Source: Streptomyces sp. f51
GTDB lineage: Bacteria; Actinomycetota; Actinomycetes; Streptomycetales; Streptomycetaceae
Direction of reading: 5' to 3'
Length of the DNA: 64,000 nucleotides
Assembly (NCBI RefSeq): GCF_037940415.1
Contig: NZ_CP149798.1
Location: 4,497,001 to 4,561,000, forward strand
Shown here: piece after piece, positions 1 to 62,798 of the stretch
Layout: each line of letters opens with the position of its first letter
Numbering within the stretch: the stretch's first letter is position 1
Notes under the pieces: generated by a model
Told to the model about the DNA's origin: nothing
The model's input: only the letters and a program-made list of their open reading frames with translations
The model's database searches: none
Program-made: the position numbers and the translations under genes

Positions 1-188
1 CGTCGCCGTACGGTCTCCACGGCGGCCGCGTCCAGCAGCGCCACCGGAGCCTGGCGCCCGGTGTGCTGTTCCGGGAGCGTCCGCCGGTCGGTACCGAGGA
101 GCGCCACGGTGACGAGTTCCTCCCAGGAACCGCCGGCGGGCGTGCCGGCCTGGGCCGGGGTCGCGGCCGGGGTCGAGGTCGGGTTCAT
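1..188 (-). CDS. DUF5691 family protein, N-terminal part, runs off the window
   Basis: Only the first 62 codons are present, because the gene continues past base 1. The ATG at 188 has a clear ribosome binding site (GAAAGGA, about 194-200). After an Ala/Pro/Thr-rich stretch the protein reads WEELVTVALLGTDRR, which I recognise as the typical start of DUF5691 proteins. No biochemical function is established for the family. It lies downstream of the SWIM zinc-finger gene on the same strand and divergent from MoxR, DUF5682 and VWA genes, so it probably belongs to that module. The family call rests on this short motif and on context. Confidence 0.72.
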   Translation of the reverse strand, partial: MNPTSTPAATPAQAGTPAGGSWEELVTVALLGTDRRTLPEQHTGRQAPVALLDAAAVETVRR

Positions 189-531
189 GAGCGTCCTTTC
201 TGCGCGGAGGGCGGGGGGTTCAGGGCCGGTCGGTCGTCGGGTCGCGACGGCCGACGCGAGCGGGGCGCGGTTGGCGTCCGGCACCCGGCCCGCGTGGCCG
301 GGGTGACGGGAGGGGCGAACATGCCGGGTGTGGTGGGCGGGTTGGGGGCGGCAAGGGCGCCGGGTGCGGTGGGTGTGTCGGCGGCGGCAAGGGCGCCGGG
401 TGCGGTGAGCGTGTCGGGTGCAGTGGGTGCAGTGGGTGCAGTGGGTGCAGTGGGTGGAGCGGGTGGAGCGGGTGGAGCGGATGGAGCGGGTGCGGCCGGT
501 GCAGCCGGTGCGGCGGGGGTGGTGGCCGCTG
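189..531. other. Gap between SWIM and DUF5691 genes, holding a 9-bp repeat tract
   Basis: This 343-base spacer separates two minus-strand genes that would normally lie close together. It holds the Shine-Dalgarno of the DUF5691 gene at one end and a run of 9-base repeats at 416-514. I see no convincing gene. One minus-strand frame stays open through the repeats and would read as an Ala/Pro/Thr-rich chain, but it begins inside the SWIM gene in another frame. Confidence 0.5.
416..514. repeat. Eleven tandem 9-bp units
   Basis: Four copies of GGGTGCAGT (416-451) are followed by three of GGGTGGAGC, one GGATGGAGC and three diverged units. The period is exactly 9 bases, so every frame repeats a tripeptide. 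The identical first four units suggest recent expansion. Confidence 0.85.
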
Positions 532-1887
532 TCAGCACAGCGGCACCGCCTCGCCCTTGCCCTCCGGCCACGCCGTCAGGGGAGTGAAGCCGCGGTGTCC
601 GCACTCTCCGAAGACCGTGACCGGTGCGCCGCCGGACAGGGCGACCAGTCGCCACAGTTCGGGGCGCGACAGCGCGGAAGGACTGAGCGGAAGGGCCAAC
701 TCGCCGTCCAGGTCGGCAAGTTGCCACAAGTCGCCGTCCGGCGTCGGCACGACCCGGTCCAGAGTGACCGGACAGGAGTCCAGCCAGGGATCGTCGCGCA
801 GGGCCTCCCCGTAACGGGCGGCGGCCTGGGCCGTGGTCAGCCCGGTCGGCCGTATCGCCGAGGGTGCCGGGGCGCTGAACCGCTCGCCCAGCGCCGACCG
901 CAGTTGGCCGGATCCCGGGTACCCGGACAGGTCCGCCTCGAAGGACAGCCCCACCGGCAGCGCCAGTTCGGGTGCCCGGCCCGCCGCGCCGTAGGAGAGA
1001 AGCAGGGCCGTGCGGCCCGACCCGGCGCCGTACAGCCAGATCCTGCGGGTCGTGAGCCGGGCGTCCGCCGTGTCGTACTGGGCGAGGACCAGCCAGCTGT
1101 CCCGCAGCGGCGGGCCGTCCGCCGAGCCGGGCAGTCCGACGCGGGAGCGGACCGTCGCGGCCACGCCGTCCGGCAGCCGCTCGCGCCGCAGCCAGCCCTG
1201 GTCGAGAAGATGCAGCAGCGCGCACTCCTCCAGGAGCCGCACGGGCCAGCCCGGCCCCGACGACGGGATCGCCCCCAACTCCCTTACGCGCGCGGCCAGA
1301 CCAGGGGCCTGCGCGTCGACCATCCGGGCCGCCGTCTCCTCCCACATGCCGTACCCGGCGCGCTCGGCGGAGGCGAGGCCGCCGCGCAGCAGGTCCGCCA
1401 GCCGCTGCTCCAACTCGGCCGCCCCCGCGGTGATCCGCTCGGCCCGCCGCTCCGCCCTGCGCCGCGCCGCCTCGGGATCACCCGTCGAGGAAGCTCCAGA
1501 TCCCCCGCCCTCCGCGCGCCTGACCTCCGCGCGCCTGCGTCTTCCCTCCAGCCACTCGGCGGCCCAGTCCGGAGCCTGCCCGGACTCCACCGCCCCGTCC
1601 GCGCCCGCCCAGAGCAGCAGCAGTCCCAGCGCGTGCTTGCACGGGAACTTCCGGCTCGGACAACTGCACTTGTAAGCCGGACCCGCCGAGTCCGCGATGT
1701 CGACGACCGTCTGATACGGCTTGCTGCCACTTCCCCTGCACAGTCCCCATACCGTCCCCTCCTCGGTGGTGCCCGCCTGCGACCACGGTCCGGCCGCGCC
1801 GAGCTTGCTCCCCGCCTTGCGTGACGCGGCGTCAGGTGCCAGTGCCAGCACCTGATCCGCCGTCCAGCGCACCGCCTGCTGTGTCAT
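532..1887 (-). CDS. SWIM zinc-finger family protein (YehQ-like)
   Basis: This 451-residue protein carries a SWIM zinc-binding motif, CxC-x6-CxH, at about C74, C76, C83 and H85 (KCSCPSRKFPCKH). SWIM domains bind zinc and are linked to DNA or protein binding. The rest is an Arg- and Ala-rich helical part and a C-terminal domain without a recognised catalytic motif. The ATG at 1887 starts MTQQAVRW. The frame stays open up to 2205, but that extension would overlap the divergent ATPase gene and I reject it. The gene ends ...AVPLC at 532. It is divergent from the MoxR gene, with a 133-base shared promoter region, and precedes the DUF5691 gene. Confidence 0.85.
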   Translation of the reverse strand: MTQQAVRWTADQVLALAPDAASRKAGSKLGAAGPWSQAGTTEEGTVWGLCRGSGSKPYQTVVDIADSAGPAYKCSCPSRKFPCKHALGLLLLWAGADGAVESGQAPDWAAEWLEGRRRRAEVRRAEGGGSGASSTGDPEAARRRAERRAERITAGAAELEQRLADLLRGGLASAERAGYGMWEETAARMVDAQAPGLAARVRELGAIPSSGPGWPVRLLEECALLHLLDQGWLRRERLPDGVAATVRSRVGLPGSADGPPLRDSWLVLAQYDTADARLTTRRIWLYGAGSGRTALLLSYGAAGRAPELALPVGLSFEADLSGYPGSGQLRSALGERFSAPAPSAIRPTGLTTAQAAARYGEALRDDPWLDSCPVTLDRVVPTPDGDLWQLADLDGELALPLSPSALSRPELWRLVALSGGAPVTVFGECGHRGFTPLTAWPEGKGEAVPLC

Positions 1888-2020
1888 GGGATCGAAGGTA
1901 GGTCCCGCCACTGACAATCGACCTCCGCAAGCGTGTTTGCGCAGGTCAGAGTGCATTGTCAGTGGCGTGGTGCACGGTGGAACCAGATCCGAACCGGCCG
2001 AGCTGGAGGGGGACCGAGCC

Positions 2021-3166
2021 ATGTCCGTGTCCGTTGAACCGACGTCTGTCGACGCACCCGCGGGAGAGAGGGGCGCGAGCGGGCCGAGCGAGGCGCTGCG
2101 CCCGCACGCCGAGCACGCCTTCGCCGCCGAACTCGCCGCGCTCGCGGCCCAGGACGACCGTCCCCGCCCCGAGCGCTGGCTGCTGTCACCCTGGGCCGTG
2201 GCCACCTATCTGCTGGGCGGCACCCTGCCGGACGGCACTGTGATCACCCCCAAGTACGTGGGGCCGCGCCGCATCGTCGAGGTCGCCGTCACGACCCTCG
2301 CCACCGACCGGGCCCTGCTCCTGCTCGGTGTGCCCGGCACCGCGAAGACGTGGGTGTCCGAGCATCTGGCGGCCGCCGTCAGCGGCGACTCGACGCTGCT
2401 CGTGCAGGGCACCGCCGGCACCCCGGAGGAGGCCATCCGGTACGGCTGGAACTACGCGCAGCTGCTCGCGCACGGGCCCAGCCGGGACGCGCTCGTGCCG
2501 AGCCCCGTCATGCGGGCCATGGCCGAGGGCATGACGGCCCGCGTCGAGGAACTCACCCGCGTTCCCGCCGACGTTCAGGACAGCCTGATCACGATTCTCT
2601 CCGAGAAGACCCTGCCGATACCGGAACTGGGCCAGGAGGTGCAGGCCGTGCGCGGGTTCAACCTGATCGCCACGGCCAACGACCGCGACCGCGGTGTCAA
2701 CGAACTCTCCAGCGCGCTGCGCCGCCGTTTCAACACCGTGGTGCTGCCGTTGCCGGAGAGCGCCGAGGCCGAGGTCGACATCGTCTCGCGCCGCGTCGAC
2801 CAGATCGGCCGCTCCCTCGACCTGCCCGCCGTGCCCGACGGCGCGGCCGAGATCCGCCGGGTCGTCACGGTCTTCCGGGAGCTGCGTGACGGGATCACGT
2901 CCGACGGCCGGACGAAGCTGAAGTCGCCCAGCGGCACCCTGTCCACGGCCGAGGCGATCTCCGTCGTGACCAACGGCCTCGCCCTGGCCGCCCACTTCGG
3001 CGACGGTGTCCTGCGGGCGGGCGACGTCGCCGCGGGCATCCTCGGCGCCGTCGTGCGCGACCCGGCCGCCGACCGCGTCATCTGGCAGGAGTACCTGGAG
3101 GCGGTCGTCCGCGAGCGGGACGGCTGGAAGGACTTCTACCGCGCCTGCCGCGAGGTGAGCGCGTGA
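2021..3166 (+). CDS. MoxR-family AAA ATPase (YehL-like)
   Basis: This 381-residue cytoplasmic ATPase has a Walker A motif GVPGTAKT at about 103-110, a degenerate Walker B (ARVEEL, Glu-Glu in place of Asp-Glu) and the sensor/Arg-finger region ATANDRDR...SSALRRRFN. MoxR ATPases usually act as chaperones that load or activate a partner with a VWA domain, and a VWA gene lies two genes downstream. The ATG at 2021 follows GGAGGGGG; the frame is open from 1886 but this start has the ribosome binding site. The next gene overlaps by 4 bases, so the ATPase, DUF5682 and VWA genes are translationally coupled. Confidence 0.9.
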   Translation: MSVSVEPTSVDAPAGERGASGPSEALRPHAEHAFAAELAALAAQDDRPRPERWLLSPWAVATYLLGGTLPDGTVITPKYVGPRRIVEVAVTTLATDRALLLLGVPGTAKTWVSEHLAAAVSGDSTLLVQGTAGTPEEAIRYGWNYAQLLAHGPSRDALVPSPVMRAMAEGMTARVEELTRVPADVQDSLITILSEKTLPIPELGQEVQAVRGFNLIATANDRDRGVNELSSALRRRFNTVVLPLPESAEAEVDIVSRRVDQIGRSLDLPAVPDGAAEIRRVVTVFRELRDGITSDGRTKLKSPSGTLSTAEAISVVTNGLALAAHFGDGVLRAGDVAAGILGAVVRDPAADRVIWQEYLEAVVRERDGWKDFYRACREVSA

Positions 3167-5676
3167 GTGCCGAGCGGGACGCAGGCCCGCCCGCTCCCGG
3201 GGGCGGGGCGAGCAGGGGGCCGGGGCCGCTGCTGCTCGGTGTACGGCATCACGGACCCGGGTCGGCCCGGGCCGTACGGGCGGCGCTGGAGGCCGCGGCT
3301 CCCCGGGTCGTGCTGATCGAGGGGCCGCCCGAGGCGGACGAGCTGGTCCCGCTGGCCGCCGACAAGGAGATGCGGCCGCCCGTGGCGCTGCTGGCCCACG
3401 TGGTGGACGAGCCCGGCAGGTCGGCCTTCTGGCCGCTTGCCGAGTTCTCCCCGGAGTGGGTGGCGATCCAGTGGGCCCTGGAGCACGGGGTGGCGGCCCG
3501 TTTCATCGACCTGCCGGCCGCCCACACCCTCGCCTGGGGAAGCGACGGTCCGGCCCCCGACGGCACCGGTACGAACCCCGACCGGGACGGGCCTGACTGC
3601 GACCGGGACGGGCCCGAGGGGGCCGGGAGCCTCCCGGGTGATCCCGGCCGCGGGGGCGAGCCCGGAGAGCCGGCCGCGGCCGAGGGGTCCGGAAGCCCCG
3701 TCGACGTGGGCGCCGTACGGATCGACCCCCTCGCGGTGCTCGCCGGGGCGGCCGGGTACGACGACCCGGAGCGCTGGTGGGAGGACGTGGTCGAGCACCG
3801 GGCCGGGACGGCGGACGACCCGTTCGCTCCGTTCACGGTGCTGGAGGAGGCCATGGGGGCCCTGCGCGAGGCGTACGGGGTCGGGGGGCACGACCGGGAC
3901 CTGGTGCGCGAGGCGTACATGCGGCTCCAGATCCGTTCGGCGCGAAGGGAGTTCGGGGACGACCTGGCCGTGGTGTGCGGGGCCTGGCACGTCCCCGCGC
4001 TGCGGCAGAGTGCCACCGTCGGCGCCGACAGGGCGCTCCTCAAGGGCCTGCCGAAGGCCAGGGTCCAGCTGACCTGGGTGCCCTGGACCCACCGCAGACT
4101 GTCCCGGGCCAGTGGATACGGCGCGGGCATCGACTCGCCGGGCTGGTACGGACACCTGTTCAGCGCCCCCGACCGCCCTGTCGAGCGGTGGATGACCAAG
4201 GTCGCCAGGCTGCTGCGCGACGAGGACCGGGGCGTGTCGTCGGCCCATGTCATCGAGGCCGTGCGCCTGGCCGGCACCCTCGCCGCCATGCGCGGTCGCC
4301 CGCTGCCGGGACTGACCGAGACCACCGACGCCGTCCGGGCCGTGATGTGCGAGGGCTCGGACGTCCCCCTGGAACTGGTGCGCGACAGGCTCGTGGTCGG
4401 CGAGGTGCTCGGGGAGGTGCCGGAGTCCGCCCCGGCGGTTCCGTTGCAGCGGGACCTCGGCCGTTCGCAGCGGCGGCTGCGGCTCAAGCCCGAGGCGCTG
4501 GAGCGGGAGCTGGAGCTCGACCTGCGCAAGGAGACCGACGCGGGGCGCAGCACACTGCTGCACCGGCTGCGGCTCCTCGGCGTCGGGTGGGGCGAGCTCT
4601 CGGAGTCCCGCGGCAGCACGGGCACCTTCCGGGAGACCTGGCGGCTGCGCTGGGAGCCGGAGCTGTCGGTGCGGGTCGCCGAGGCCGGGGTGTGGGGCAC
4701 GACCGTCGTGTCCGCGGCGACGGCCAAGGCCGAGGCGGACGCCGTCGGCGCACCGTCGCTCGCGGACGTGACGGCGCTCGCCGAACGCTGCCTTCTCGCC
4801 GAGCTCGCGGACGCGCTGCCCGTGGTGATGCGGGTGCTCGCCGACCGTGCGGCCCTCGACACGGACGTGGGCCAGCTGGCGCGGGCCCTGCCCGCGCTCG
4901 TCCGCTCCCTGCGCTACGGCGATGTGCGCGGCACCGACACCCACGCCCTCGCAGGCGTCGCGGCCGGACTCGCCGAGCGCGTCTTCGTCGGTCTCCCGCC
5001 GGCCTGCGCCGCGCTGGACGGCGACGCCGCCCAGGAGATGCGCGGCCACGTCGACGCCGTGCACGGAGCGGTGGGCCTGCTGGGCGAGGCGACCGCCGAG
5101 GCCGCGGAGACCGGCGGTGTCCGCGGCCGGTGGTACGCGGTGCTGCGGGTCCTCGCGACCCGGGACACCGTGCCGGGGGTGATCAGAGGCCGGGCGGTCC
5201 GCCTGCTCCTCGACGAGGGGGAGCTGGCGCAGGAGGAGGCCGCGCGGCTCATGGGCCTCGTGCTCTCGCCGGGGACACCGCCCGCGGACGGGGCCGCGTG
5301 GATCGAGGGCTTCGTCGGGGGCGGCTCCGGCGGCATGCTGCTCGTGCACGACGAGCGGCTGCTCGCCCTGGTGGACACCTGGCTGACCGGGGTGCCGGCG
5401 GAGGCGTTCACCGATGTGCTGCCGTTGCTGCGCCGGACGTTCTCGGCGTACGAGACGGGGGTGCGCAGGACGCTGGGCGAGCTCGTCCGGCGCGGCCCCG
5501 CGCCGCGCGCGAACACCGGGACCGGCGGCTCCGGATCCGGCATCCCCGGGTTCGCCCCCGTTCTCGACACCGAGCGCGCCGACGCCGTGCTGCCGTTGCT
5601 GAGCCTGCTCCTGGGCCTCGGCGATCCCGAAACCGACCTCCACACCGGAAACGATCTTGCGAGGGTGGCCCCATGA
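3163..5676 (+). CDS. DUF5682 family protein (YehM-like)
   Basis: This 837-residue protein has a GTG start inside the ATPase stop (GTGA overlap). The N-terminus reads LLGVRHHGPGSARAV and then VVLIEGPPEADEL. This pattern of conserved His followed by Glu-Gly-Pro is what I expect of DUF5682, and it loosely recalls the EreA/ChaN/TraB fold; that link is inference. Residues about 125-175 are an Asp/Gly/Pro-rich low-complexity insert. The rest is mostly helical with no transmembrane segment. Its place between a MoxR ATPase and a VWA protein suggests it works with both; no reaction is known to me. Confidence 0.82.
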   Translation: MSAERDAGPPAPGGGASRGPGPLLLGVRHHGPGSARAVRAALEAAAPRVVLIEGPPEADELVPLAADKEMRPPVALLAHVVDEPGRSAFWPLAEFSPEWVAIQWALEHGVAARFIDLPAAHTLAWGSDGPAPDGTGTNPDRDGPDCDRDGPEGAGSLPGDPGRGGEPGEPAAAEGSGSPVDVGAVRIDPLAVLAGAAGYDDPERWWEDVVEHRAGTADDPFAPFTVLEEAMGALREAYGVGGHDRDLVREAYMRLQIRSARREFGDDLAVVCGAWHVPALRQSATVGADRALLKGLPKARVQLTWVPWTHRRLSRASGYGAGIDSPGWYGHLFSAPDRPVERWMTKVARLLRDEDRGVSSAHVIEAVRLAGTLAAMRGRPLPGLTETTDAVRAVMCEGSDVPLELVRDRLVVGEVLGEVPESAPAVPLQRDLGRSQRRLRLKPEALERELELDLRKETDAGRSTLLHRLRLLGVGWGELSESRGSTGTFRETWRLRWEPELSVRVAEAGVWGTTVVSAATAKAEADAVGAPSLADVTALAERCLLAELADALPVVMRVLADRAALDTDVGQLARALPALVRSLRYGDVRGTDTHALAGVAAGLAERVFVGLPPACAALDGDAAQEMRGHVDAVHGAVGLLGEATAEAAETGGVRGRWYAVLRVLATRDTVPGVIRGRAVRLLLDEGELAQEEAARLMGLVLSPGTPPADGAAWIEGFVGGGSGGMLLVHDERLLALVDTWLTGVPAEAFTDVLPLLRRTFSAYETGVRRTLGELVRRGPAPRANTGTGGSGSGIPGFAPVLDTERADAVLPLLSLLLGLGDPETDLHTGNDLARVAP

Positions 5677-6836
5677 CCGAGCTGGCGTCGGACGCCGGGG
5701 AAGAGCGGCTGCGGCGATGGCGGCTGGTGCTCGGCGGTGACGAGGCGGACGGCACCGGATGCGCGCTCTCCGGCCGGGACGCGGCCATGGACGGGGCGCT
5801 GAGCGCGCTCTACGGCAGGGACGGCGGACGGCGGCCGGGGCGGGACCGCTCGGCGGGGCTCGGGGCGTCGGCTCCGTCGGTCGCGCGCTGGCTCGGCGAC
5901 ATCCGGACCTACTTCCCCTCCTCCGTCGTCCAGGTGATGCAACGCGACGCCATCGACCGGCTCGGGCTGTCCGCGCTGCTCCTGGAGCCCGAGATGCTGG
6001 AGGCGGTCGAGGCCGACGTGCACCTGGTCGGCACCCTTCTCTCCCTCAACAAGGCCATGCCGGAGACGACGAAGGAGACCGCCCGGGCCGTGGTGCGCAA
6101 GGTCGTGGAGGACCTGGAGAAGAAGCTCGCCACCCGCACCCGGGCCACCCTCACCGGCGCCCTCGACCGCAGCGCCAGGATCAGCAGACCCCGCCACCAC
6201 GACATCGACTGGAACCGCACGATCGCGGCCAACCTGAAGCACTACCTGCCCGAGTACCGCACGGTCGTGCCCGAGCGGCTGATCGGCTACGGGCGGGCCT
6301 CCCAGTCCGTGAAGAAGGAGGTCGTCCTCTGCATCGACCAGTCGGGCTCGATGGCGGCGTCGGTCGTCTACGCCTCCGTGTTCGGCGCCGTGCTGGCGTC
6401 GATGCGGTCCATCGCCACCCGGCTCGTCGTCTTCGACACGGCGGTCGTCGACCTCACCGACCAGCTCGACGACCCCGTCGACGTCCTCTTCGGCACGCAG
6501 CTCGGCGGCGGCACGGACATCAACCGGGCCCTCGCCTACTGCCAGTCGCAGATCACCCGGCCGGCCGACACGGTCGTCGTCCTCATCAGCGACCTCTACG
6601 AGGGCGGCATCCGCGACGAGATGCTGAAGCGGGTCGCGGCGATGAAGGCGTCGGGGGTGCAGTTCGTGGCGCTGCTCGCGCTGTCCGACGAGGGGGCGCC
6701 CGCGTACGACCGTGAGCACGCGGCGGCGCTCGCGGCGCTCGGCGCGCCGGCGTTCGCGTGCACACCCGATCTGTTTCCCGAGGTGATGGCGGCGGCGATC
6801 GAGAAGAGGCCCCTTCCGATACCGGACGCCGGGTGA
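5673..6836 (+). CDS. VWA domain-containing protein (YehP-like)
   Basis: This 387-residue protein begins at an ATG overlapping the DUF5682 stop (ATGA). The C-terminal half is a von Willebrand factor A domain with an intact metal-ion-dependent adhesion site: DQSGS at 222-226, then GGGTDINRA with the MIDAS Thr, then LISDLYEGG. The N-terminal half is helical and Arg-rich. There is no signal peptide or membrane segment, so it should act in the cytoplasm as a partner of the MoxR-type ATPase. A strong hairpin at 6958-7004 follows the gene and ends the operon. Confidence 0.88.
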   Translation: MTELASDAGEERLRRWRLVLGGDEADGTGCALSGRDAAMDGALSALYGRDGGRRPGRDRSAGLGASAPSVARWLGDIRTYFPSSVVQVMQRDAIDRLGLSALLLEPEMLEAVEADVHLVGTLLSLNKAMPETTKETARAVVRKVVEDLEKKLATRTRATLTGALDRSARISRPRHHDIDWNRTIAANLKHYLPEYRTVVPERLIGYGRASQSVKKEVVLCIDQSGSMAASVVYASVFGAVLASMRSIATRLVVFDTAVVDLTDQLDDPVDVLFGTQLGGGTDINRALAYCQSQITRPADTVVVLISDLYEGGIRDEMLKRVAAMKASGVQFVALLALSDEGAPAYDREHAAALAALGAPAFACTPDLFPEVMAAAIEKRPLPIPDAG

Positions 6837-62681: not shown

Positions 62682-62798
62682 GTCGGATCCGGGGTGACTG
62701 TCGCGGACGGGCCCGGCGACCGTCGCGAACAGGCCGGACGCCGAACTCGGCAGGACCCGAGGGCCGGTTGTCAGTGGGGGCTCGTACTGTTCGTCGGC

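Follow-up and report, generated by a model that had tools for sequence, protein, structure and literature searches.

A co-conserved MoxR-DUF5682-VWA module of Streptomyces lies behind RecA-NDp-type promoters and probably belongs to the DNA-damage response

We examined a 64,000-nt stretch of a Streptomyces genome (the window, meaning this whole stretch) and found that five genes at its left end, encoding a SWIM zinc-finger protein, a DUF5691 protein, a MoxR AAA+ ATPase, a DUF5682 protein and a VWA protein, are members of what the evidence supports as a genuine, co-conserved and previously undescribed MoxR-VWA module. Since the Streptomyces module sits behind the type of promoter used by recA and other DNA-repair genes, a role of the five genes in the DNA-damage response is probable. 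The explanation that we prefer, with a probability of about one half, is a damage-inducible MoxR-VWA remodelling machine in which DUF5682 is the dedicated partner. The YehL subfamily of MoxR ATPases and the DUF families had already been named (PMC3893208; Pfam), and the new findings are the RecA-NDp promoters, a TIKI/TraB signature in DUF5682 and a HEAT/ARM-like appearance of DUF5691.

The features of the module are listed in Table 1. A sequence-only reading of the window had proposed these five families, and Pfam found all of them above its cut-off. The same reading had described two minus-strand genes opposite three plus-strand genes; the orientation was right, but most of the DUF5691 gene lies outside the window. 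From its start codon at 188, just the first 188 bp are inside, and the remainder is found to the left (L004:8554-10188); the stop codon, at L004:8554, is 1446 bp away from the window's left edge. The module is flanked on the left by pcrA and on the right by genes which by eye read as sucC and sucD. The MoxR and DUF5682 genes overlap by 4 bp, as do the DUF5682 and VWA genes, and the three are therefore probably translationally coupled.

Table 1. Module genes and putative promoters in the window
Feature	Position	Strand	Evidence or sequence
DUF5691 gene, 5' end	1..188	-	Pfam PF18944 1e-173; protein of 544 aa
SWIM zinc-finger protein	532..1887	-	Pfam PF04434 5e-6; ATG (MTQQAV...) at 1887
RecA-NDp/PafBC-type promoter of SWIM-DUF5691	1895..1917	-	TTGTCAGTG-GCGGGACC-TACCTT; strict form
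RecA-NDp-type promoter, CA variant, of MoxR-DUF5682-VWA	1956..1978	+	TTGTCAGTG-GCGTGGTG-CACGGT
MoxR AAA+ ATPase, YehL subfamily	2021..3166	+	AAA_5 4e-37; 40% identity to E. coli YehL
DUF5682 (YehM homologue)	3163..5676	+	PF18934 2e-298
VWA_CoxE protein (YehP homologue)	5673..6836	+	PF05762 5e-62; 37% identity to YehP

The Walker A and MIDAS motifs, which had been described as intact, are indeed kept across the aligned homologues. The MoxR protein possesses the Walker A sequence GVPGTAKTW, and Walker A and sensor motifs of the types PGTAKTW and IATANDRDRG are conserved in 22 homologues. The VWA protein harbours the MIDAS sequence DQSGS, and the motifs DxSxS, FDT and SDLYEGG are retained across the aligned set. 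The CxC/CxH signature of the SWIM protein is also intact, and CxCPSRxxPCKH is conserved in 13 homologues from modules of type A (defined below).

The likeness to E. coli yehL, yehM, yehP and yehQ that the sequence-only reading had pointed out was borne out. YehL, YehM and YehP belong to the same Pfam families as the MoxR, DUF5682 and VWA proteins of the window (PF18934 2e-98 for YehM), with identities of 40, 26 and 37%, respectively, and the genes are tightly packed in the same order. Judging from these similarities, the MoxR-DUF5682-VWA operon of the window is orthologous to yehL, yehM and yehP. YehL defines one of seven MoxR ATPase subfamilies (PMC3893208), and our placement of the window MoxR in this subfamily is based on the homology of the MoxR and VWA proteins to YehL and YehP and on the DUF5682 gene that lies between the two. 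YehQ is also a SWIM protein, but its similarity to the SWIM protein of the window is essentially restricted to the finger. A relationship between the type A SWIM protein and YehQ beyond the finger was considered and set aside, as the profile match was weak (13% probability, E 0.002). In MG1655 the gene order is yehF/yehH (WGR; molR, a pseudogene), yehI (DUF4132), yehK, yehL, yehM, yehP and yehQ. In contrast to the Streptomyces module, E. coli thus carries WGR and DUF4132 genes upstream, DUF5691 was not found in the E. coli control genome, and no damage box was found at the operon. yehM is present in 5284 of 5426 E. coli genomes (97%), almost always as a single chromosomal copy, and the yeh operon is dispensable in laboratory E. 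coli, having been deleted in DGF-298, a point that counts against our preferred explanation. A published function for operons of the yehLMPQ type would have told against an undescribed system; the literature that we searched, largely without subscription papers, contained none.

The MoxR-DUF5682-VWA core recurs in five phyla, in agreement with the conservation across distant phyla that had been claimed, and its families were not found mostly apart in the genomes surveyed. DUF5682 was present in 10 of 149 actinobacterial genomes, where MoxR lies directly upstream of every DUF5682 gene and VWA directly downstream in all cases except one (L116), in which VWA is upstream. Among 80 Streptomyces loci from named genomes, approximately 66-68 display the layout DUF5691(-) SWIM(-) MoxR DUF5682 VWA; genes are missing nearly always at contig ends, the exception being L031, with no detectable VWA. 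DUF5691 and DUF5682 each occur in 58 of 61 Streptomyces genomes. The complete genome G184 is without DUF5691 and has just a distant type-D-like DUF5682, and G156 is without both. In some species DUF5682 and VWA are fused into one protein, which points to a physical interaction between the two.

The partners of the core define subtypes, and the subtype in which WGR/DUF4132 replaces DUF5691 had, like the promoters, been missed in the sequence-only reading. In type A, the partners are SWIM and DUF5691, found co-directionally as SWIM-DUF5691-MoxR-DUF5682-VWA in Deinococcus, Rhizobium, Methylosinus, Methylobacterium, Nocardia and Nonomuraea; a single fused protein unites SWIM and DUF5691 in Hymenobacter. 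Type B (WGR/DUF4132-MoxR-DUF5682-VWA-SWIM) is present in E. coli, Proteus, a Streptomyces paralogue (L115) and a distant actinobacterium (L117, cut by the contig end). Type C, found at L108, L113 and L114, combines MoxR and a fused DUF5682-VWA gene with a very large ORF and with a DUF4132 gene, the last of these shown for L108 and L113, and in type D (L116) VWA comes first. Some copies of the module are plasmid-borne. On a Methylosinus trichosporium plasmid, the VWA gene (L104:12145-13370) is broken up among three reading frames and has probably been inactivated, and the other four genes look intact. In a Fusobacterium module, a different protein of 638 aa occupies the slot of DUF5691 (L106:6926-8839). 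A MoxR-DUF5682-VWA cluster resembling that of Fusobacterium was also seen on an unverified faecal contig labelled 'Bacteriophage sp.' (L110), which is probably bacterial DNA.

This distribution bears on whether the module is a conflict system, one of the options raised by the sequence-only reading. In such a system, an anti-phage or anti-element MoxR-vWA ternary device, DUF5682 would be the effector, and SWIM, DUF5691 or WGR would sense foreign nucleic acid. Kaur et al. 2020 (PMC7159879) described four MoxR-vWA ternary conflict systems, and the module shares their three-part logic of MoxR, vWA and a third core component; its partners vary between subtypes, and some copies are on plasmids, as noted above. 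On the other hand, the third component here is DUF5682, no variable effectors were seen, and the VMAP, iSTAND, FtsH and beta-propeller components were not found in the window module, with bpMoxR below the cut-off. The core is not patchy but is carried by 58/61 Streptomyces and 5284/5426 E. coli genomes, in E. coli almost always once and on the chromosome. PADLOC gave no match for the module and NCBIfam no specific match, and in IMG/VR viral contigs 42 pattern matches were obtained, with no relative confirmed. Because of the core distribution, the absence of a match in the defence library and the lack of a confirmed match on viral contigs, we disfavour a conflict system and consider it improbable.

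The evidence for a role in DNA damage comes from the 133-bp region between the SWIM and MoxR genes. When 66 of these Streptomyces intergenic regions were aligned, a pair of inverted boxes, CCACTGACAAT and ATTGTCAGTGG, stood out as conserved. The boxes emerged from the alignment without having been sought and were recognised afterwards as the RecA-NDp motif (tTGTCRgtg-8nt-TannnT; PMC5656591). The tests that followed this recognition were counts in the rest of the loci, searches with the reversed pattern and inspection of other operon subtypes. In the window, both boxes fit TTGTCRGTG-N8-nAnnnT; the one on the SWIM side matches the strict consensus and that on the MoxR side is a CAnnnT variant. 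Both boxes are kept in 61 of the 66 Streptomyces relatives, the core occurred elsewhere in these loci (1.35 Mb) 12 times, and none was obtained in 100 shuffles of the window. The CA variant was enriched over the reversed control in 61 Streptomyces genomes.

The strict motif occurs at 41 sites in the whole genome and the reversed pattern at none. Genes behind the strict sites include recA, uvrB, radA, pcrA, xseA, ogt and a YoaA/DinG-type helicase gene, as well as those for an MgsA/RarA-type ATPase and an AlkZ-like glycosylase. At recA, uvrB, radA, xseA and pcrA, the -10 element is 6-9 nt from the start codon. The ATG of the SWIM gene lies 7 nt past the -10 hexamer, and this matching spacing suggests that these transcripts are leaderless. 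The earliest description of the motif was at recA of Streptomyces (Ahel 2002, as cited in a later paper), and it has also been found at the UV-inducible gene SCO6735 (PMC5087735); in mycobacteria it is the promoter used by PafBC, an activator of the DNA-damage response (PMC6789036, PMC8223512). The module therefore resembles the PafBC/RecA-NDp regulon in promoter sequence and in the leaderless-type spacing of recA, uvrB, radA, xseA and pcrA in the same genome, but it is not among the PafBC or RecA-NDp targets named in the published sources consulted. Its induction by damage is predicted from the promoters, and we regard this induction in Streptomyces as likely.

Several further RecA-NDp boxes were noticed during these searches. 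A third box in the window, of strict form (62768-62790, plus strand), lies 8 nt before a likely leaderless ORF of 130 aa, which is followed by ORFs of 164 and 961 aa (L174:800-4595); none had a Pfam match, and the three may be a novel damage-inducible operon. Another SWIM protein, of 501 aa with its finger near the C-terminus (G000:C1:810657; L175:1687-3189), starts 6 nt past a strict box, so that the putative damage regulon would include two SWIM genes. Eleven strict boxes, several of them identical or nearly so, are clustered at G000:C1:7654572-8061311, within 0.5 Mb of the contig's end, which suggests a repeated gene family under damage control. At L158, a gene for an AlkZ-like DNA glycosylase begins directly at a RecA-NDp box.

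The box also precedes the first gene of the Streptomyces operons of types B, C and D. It is exact at L108, L114, L115 and L116 and has one mismatch at L113 (type C). The DUF5682 proteins of these operons are only approximately 22-30% identical to that of the window, and the shared box therefore implies a common control of the damage type. In other phyla, LexA, RDRM and alphaproteobacterial SOS boxes were sought with simple patterns. No SOS/RDR-type box was found upstream of the operons from Deinococcus, Rhizobium, Methylosinus, Methylobacterium and E. coli or at the other loci scanned, nor was the RecA-NDp box found at the modules from Nocardia, Nonomuraea and other actinobacteria outside Streptomyces. 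We thus limit the damage claim to Streptomyces.

This limited range, together with a box before rpsF in this genome, would also fit a general stress chaperone, or a protein-quality module, connected with DNA damage only incidentally, as promoters of the RecA-NDp/PafBC type also drive oxidative-stress and housekeeping genes. SWIM and WGR, however, are families that point to nucleic acid, and boxes are conserved at four operon subtypes in spite of the low identity of their DUF5682 proteins to that of the window. Although the PafBC regulon does include oxidative-stress functions (PMC8223512), we judge a general stress module to be unlikely, and keep the damage-inducible remodelling machine as the preferred explanation.

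DUF5682 is a candidate catalytic component of this machine. It consists of a predicted TIKI/TraB-like domain at the N-terminus (residues ~20-310) and a C-terminal alpha-solenoid (~430-820). In 22 diverse DUF5682 proteins, whose N-domains are 26-59% identical to that of the window, the residues H29, E53, S96, E98, D116, W206, E211, R249, E250, M253, G273 and H276 are kept, and of these H29, E53, R249, E250, M253 and H276 are invariant. Members of the TIKI superfamily share two His, two Glu and one basic residue (PMC6254334). Two His, a Glu and a basic residue are found in the fixed order in DUF5682 (H29, E53, R249-E250-xx-M253, H276), and the assignment of the second Glu is uncertain. The DUF5682 motifs GxRH, LIE, RExxM and GAWH parallel GSIH, IVE, RNxxW and GALH of TraB/GumN. 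With hhalign, DUF5682 matched TraB/GumN with a score of 35 (E 4e-4, probability 35%), against a maximum of 18 in 60 column shuffles, 15 with the reversed profile and 16-17 with MoxR and VWA controls; EreA scored 22 against 18. The match spans the half containing RExxM and GAWH; GxRH and LIE were placed by visual alignment. The comparison with EreA and ChaN proposed in the sequence-only reading was thus supported at the level of motifs and profiles, with TraB/GumN as the nearest relatives.

The AlphaFold model of DUF5682 (pLDDT 73) also displayed an alpha/beta N-domain and an alpha-solenoid C-terminus. When viral structures in BFVD were searched, a TraB protein had the highest probability in the list (0.99), but with a weak E value of 0.18. 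TIKI proteins were not listed in a PDB fold search with the whole model, in which the helical C-terminus fills the list. PDB sequence-profile searches gave no TIKI match with the DUF5682 alignment and nothing useful with the VWA alignment. The similarity to TraB lies in short motifs, and we tentatively propose, at somewhat less than even odds, that DUF5682 is a hydrolase. Unlike the known members of the TIKI/TraB/EreA superfamily, it carries a long alpha-solenoid C-terminus and is in permanent partnership with MoxR and VWA.

The conserved His and Glu residues of DUF5682 could instead bind a metal, and the MoxR-VWA pair might then act as CoxD-CoxE, NorQ-NorD or the chelatases do, inserting a metal or cofactor into DUF5682 or an unlinked metalloenzyme needed under stress. 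The window VWA belongs to Pfam VWA_CoxE, as does CoxE, and is encoded beside a MoxR ATPase as in CoxD-CoxE and RavA-ViaA (the ViaA match of the window VWA was far below the cut-off); other MoxR-VWA pairs mature metalloenzymes (PMC3893208). The E. coli neighbour yehH is molR, a gene reported in 1990 to be required for the use of molybdate; a molybdate role was considered on this ground and left as weak. In contrast to CoxD-CoxE and RavA-ViaA, no molybdenum or metalloenzyme neighbour was seen, a conserved metalloenzyme next to the module is absent from all annotated loci, and SWIM, DUF5691 and DUF5682 are additional. The DNA-damage promoter is common to all Streptomyces subtypes, and moeA and moeB of D. 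radiodurans do not respond together with the WGR and DUF4132 genes (PMC8533742). We therefore find metal or cofactor maturation a doubtful explanation and return to the remodelling machine.

As for the remaining partners, a model of a Streptomyces DUF5691 orthologue (pLDDT 80) consisted entirely of helices, and ARM/HEAT repeat proteins made up nearly all of the best matches to it; in this model DUF5691 looks like a HEAT/ARM-like scaffold. A type B DUF4132 protein also has HEAT repeats, so the two may have equivalent roles as scaffolds. Depletion of the damage repressor DdrO in D. radiodurans strongly raises one WGR and one DUF4132 protein (PMC8533742), which by analogy is an independent hint that the type B partners are linked to damage.

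These results can be assembled into the following model. DNA damage would fire the RecA-independent promoters (RecA-NDp, PafBC-type) in both directions and so supply all five proteins. From what is known of the MoxR-VWA family, MoxR would form an AAA+ ring, and the VWA protein, a CoxE-type co-chaperone with an intact MIDAS, would couple the ring to its target; by this analogy, ATP-driven remodelling is highly probable. DUF5682 would be the third core component, in which a body of helical repeats carries a TIKI/TraB-like His/Glu/Arg/His site; DUF5682 probably binds VWA physically and may have hydrolase or peptidase activity. Their domain families suggest that SWIM with the HEAT-like DUF5691, or WGR/DUF4132 with SWIM, most likely recognise damaged DNA or nucleoprotein. 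A protein on damaged DNA might thereby be unfolded, taken apart or cleaved by the machine, or the hydrolase might be activated at that site. By analogy, nucleoprotein is a possible substrate, one that we consider rather unlikely. Still less probable is a specific version in which SWIM/HEAT or WGR/DUF4132 reads the damage and the MoxR-VWA unfoldase feeds proteins on damaged DNA to a peptidase of TIKI/TraB fold; such a repair machine could act on substrates like DNA-protein crosslinks and repair complexes that have stalled. Among the chaperone, nucleic-acid and conflict options offered by the sequence-only reading, the regulatory evidence thus favours a chaperone-like machine in the damage response.

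One paper (PMC9380542) left undecided whether Streptomyces has a RecA/LexA-independent (PafBC-type) response. It reported that an initial search for the PafBC motif of M. smegmatis did not find it conserved in S. venezuelae, which counts against the damage link. The 41 strict sites in one genome, many of them before DNA-repair genes, bear on this question. The literature searched contained no function for yehLMPQ and its relatives, although they are core genes in Streptomyces as well as in E. coli. The promoter evidence provides a first testable role for them, in the DNA-damage response, and the TraB-like signature of DUF5682 a testable activity with named residues.
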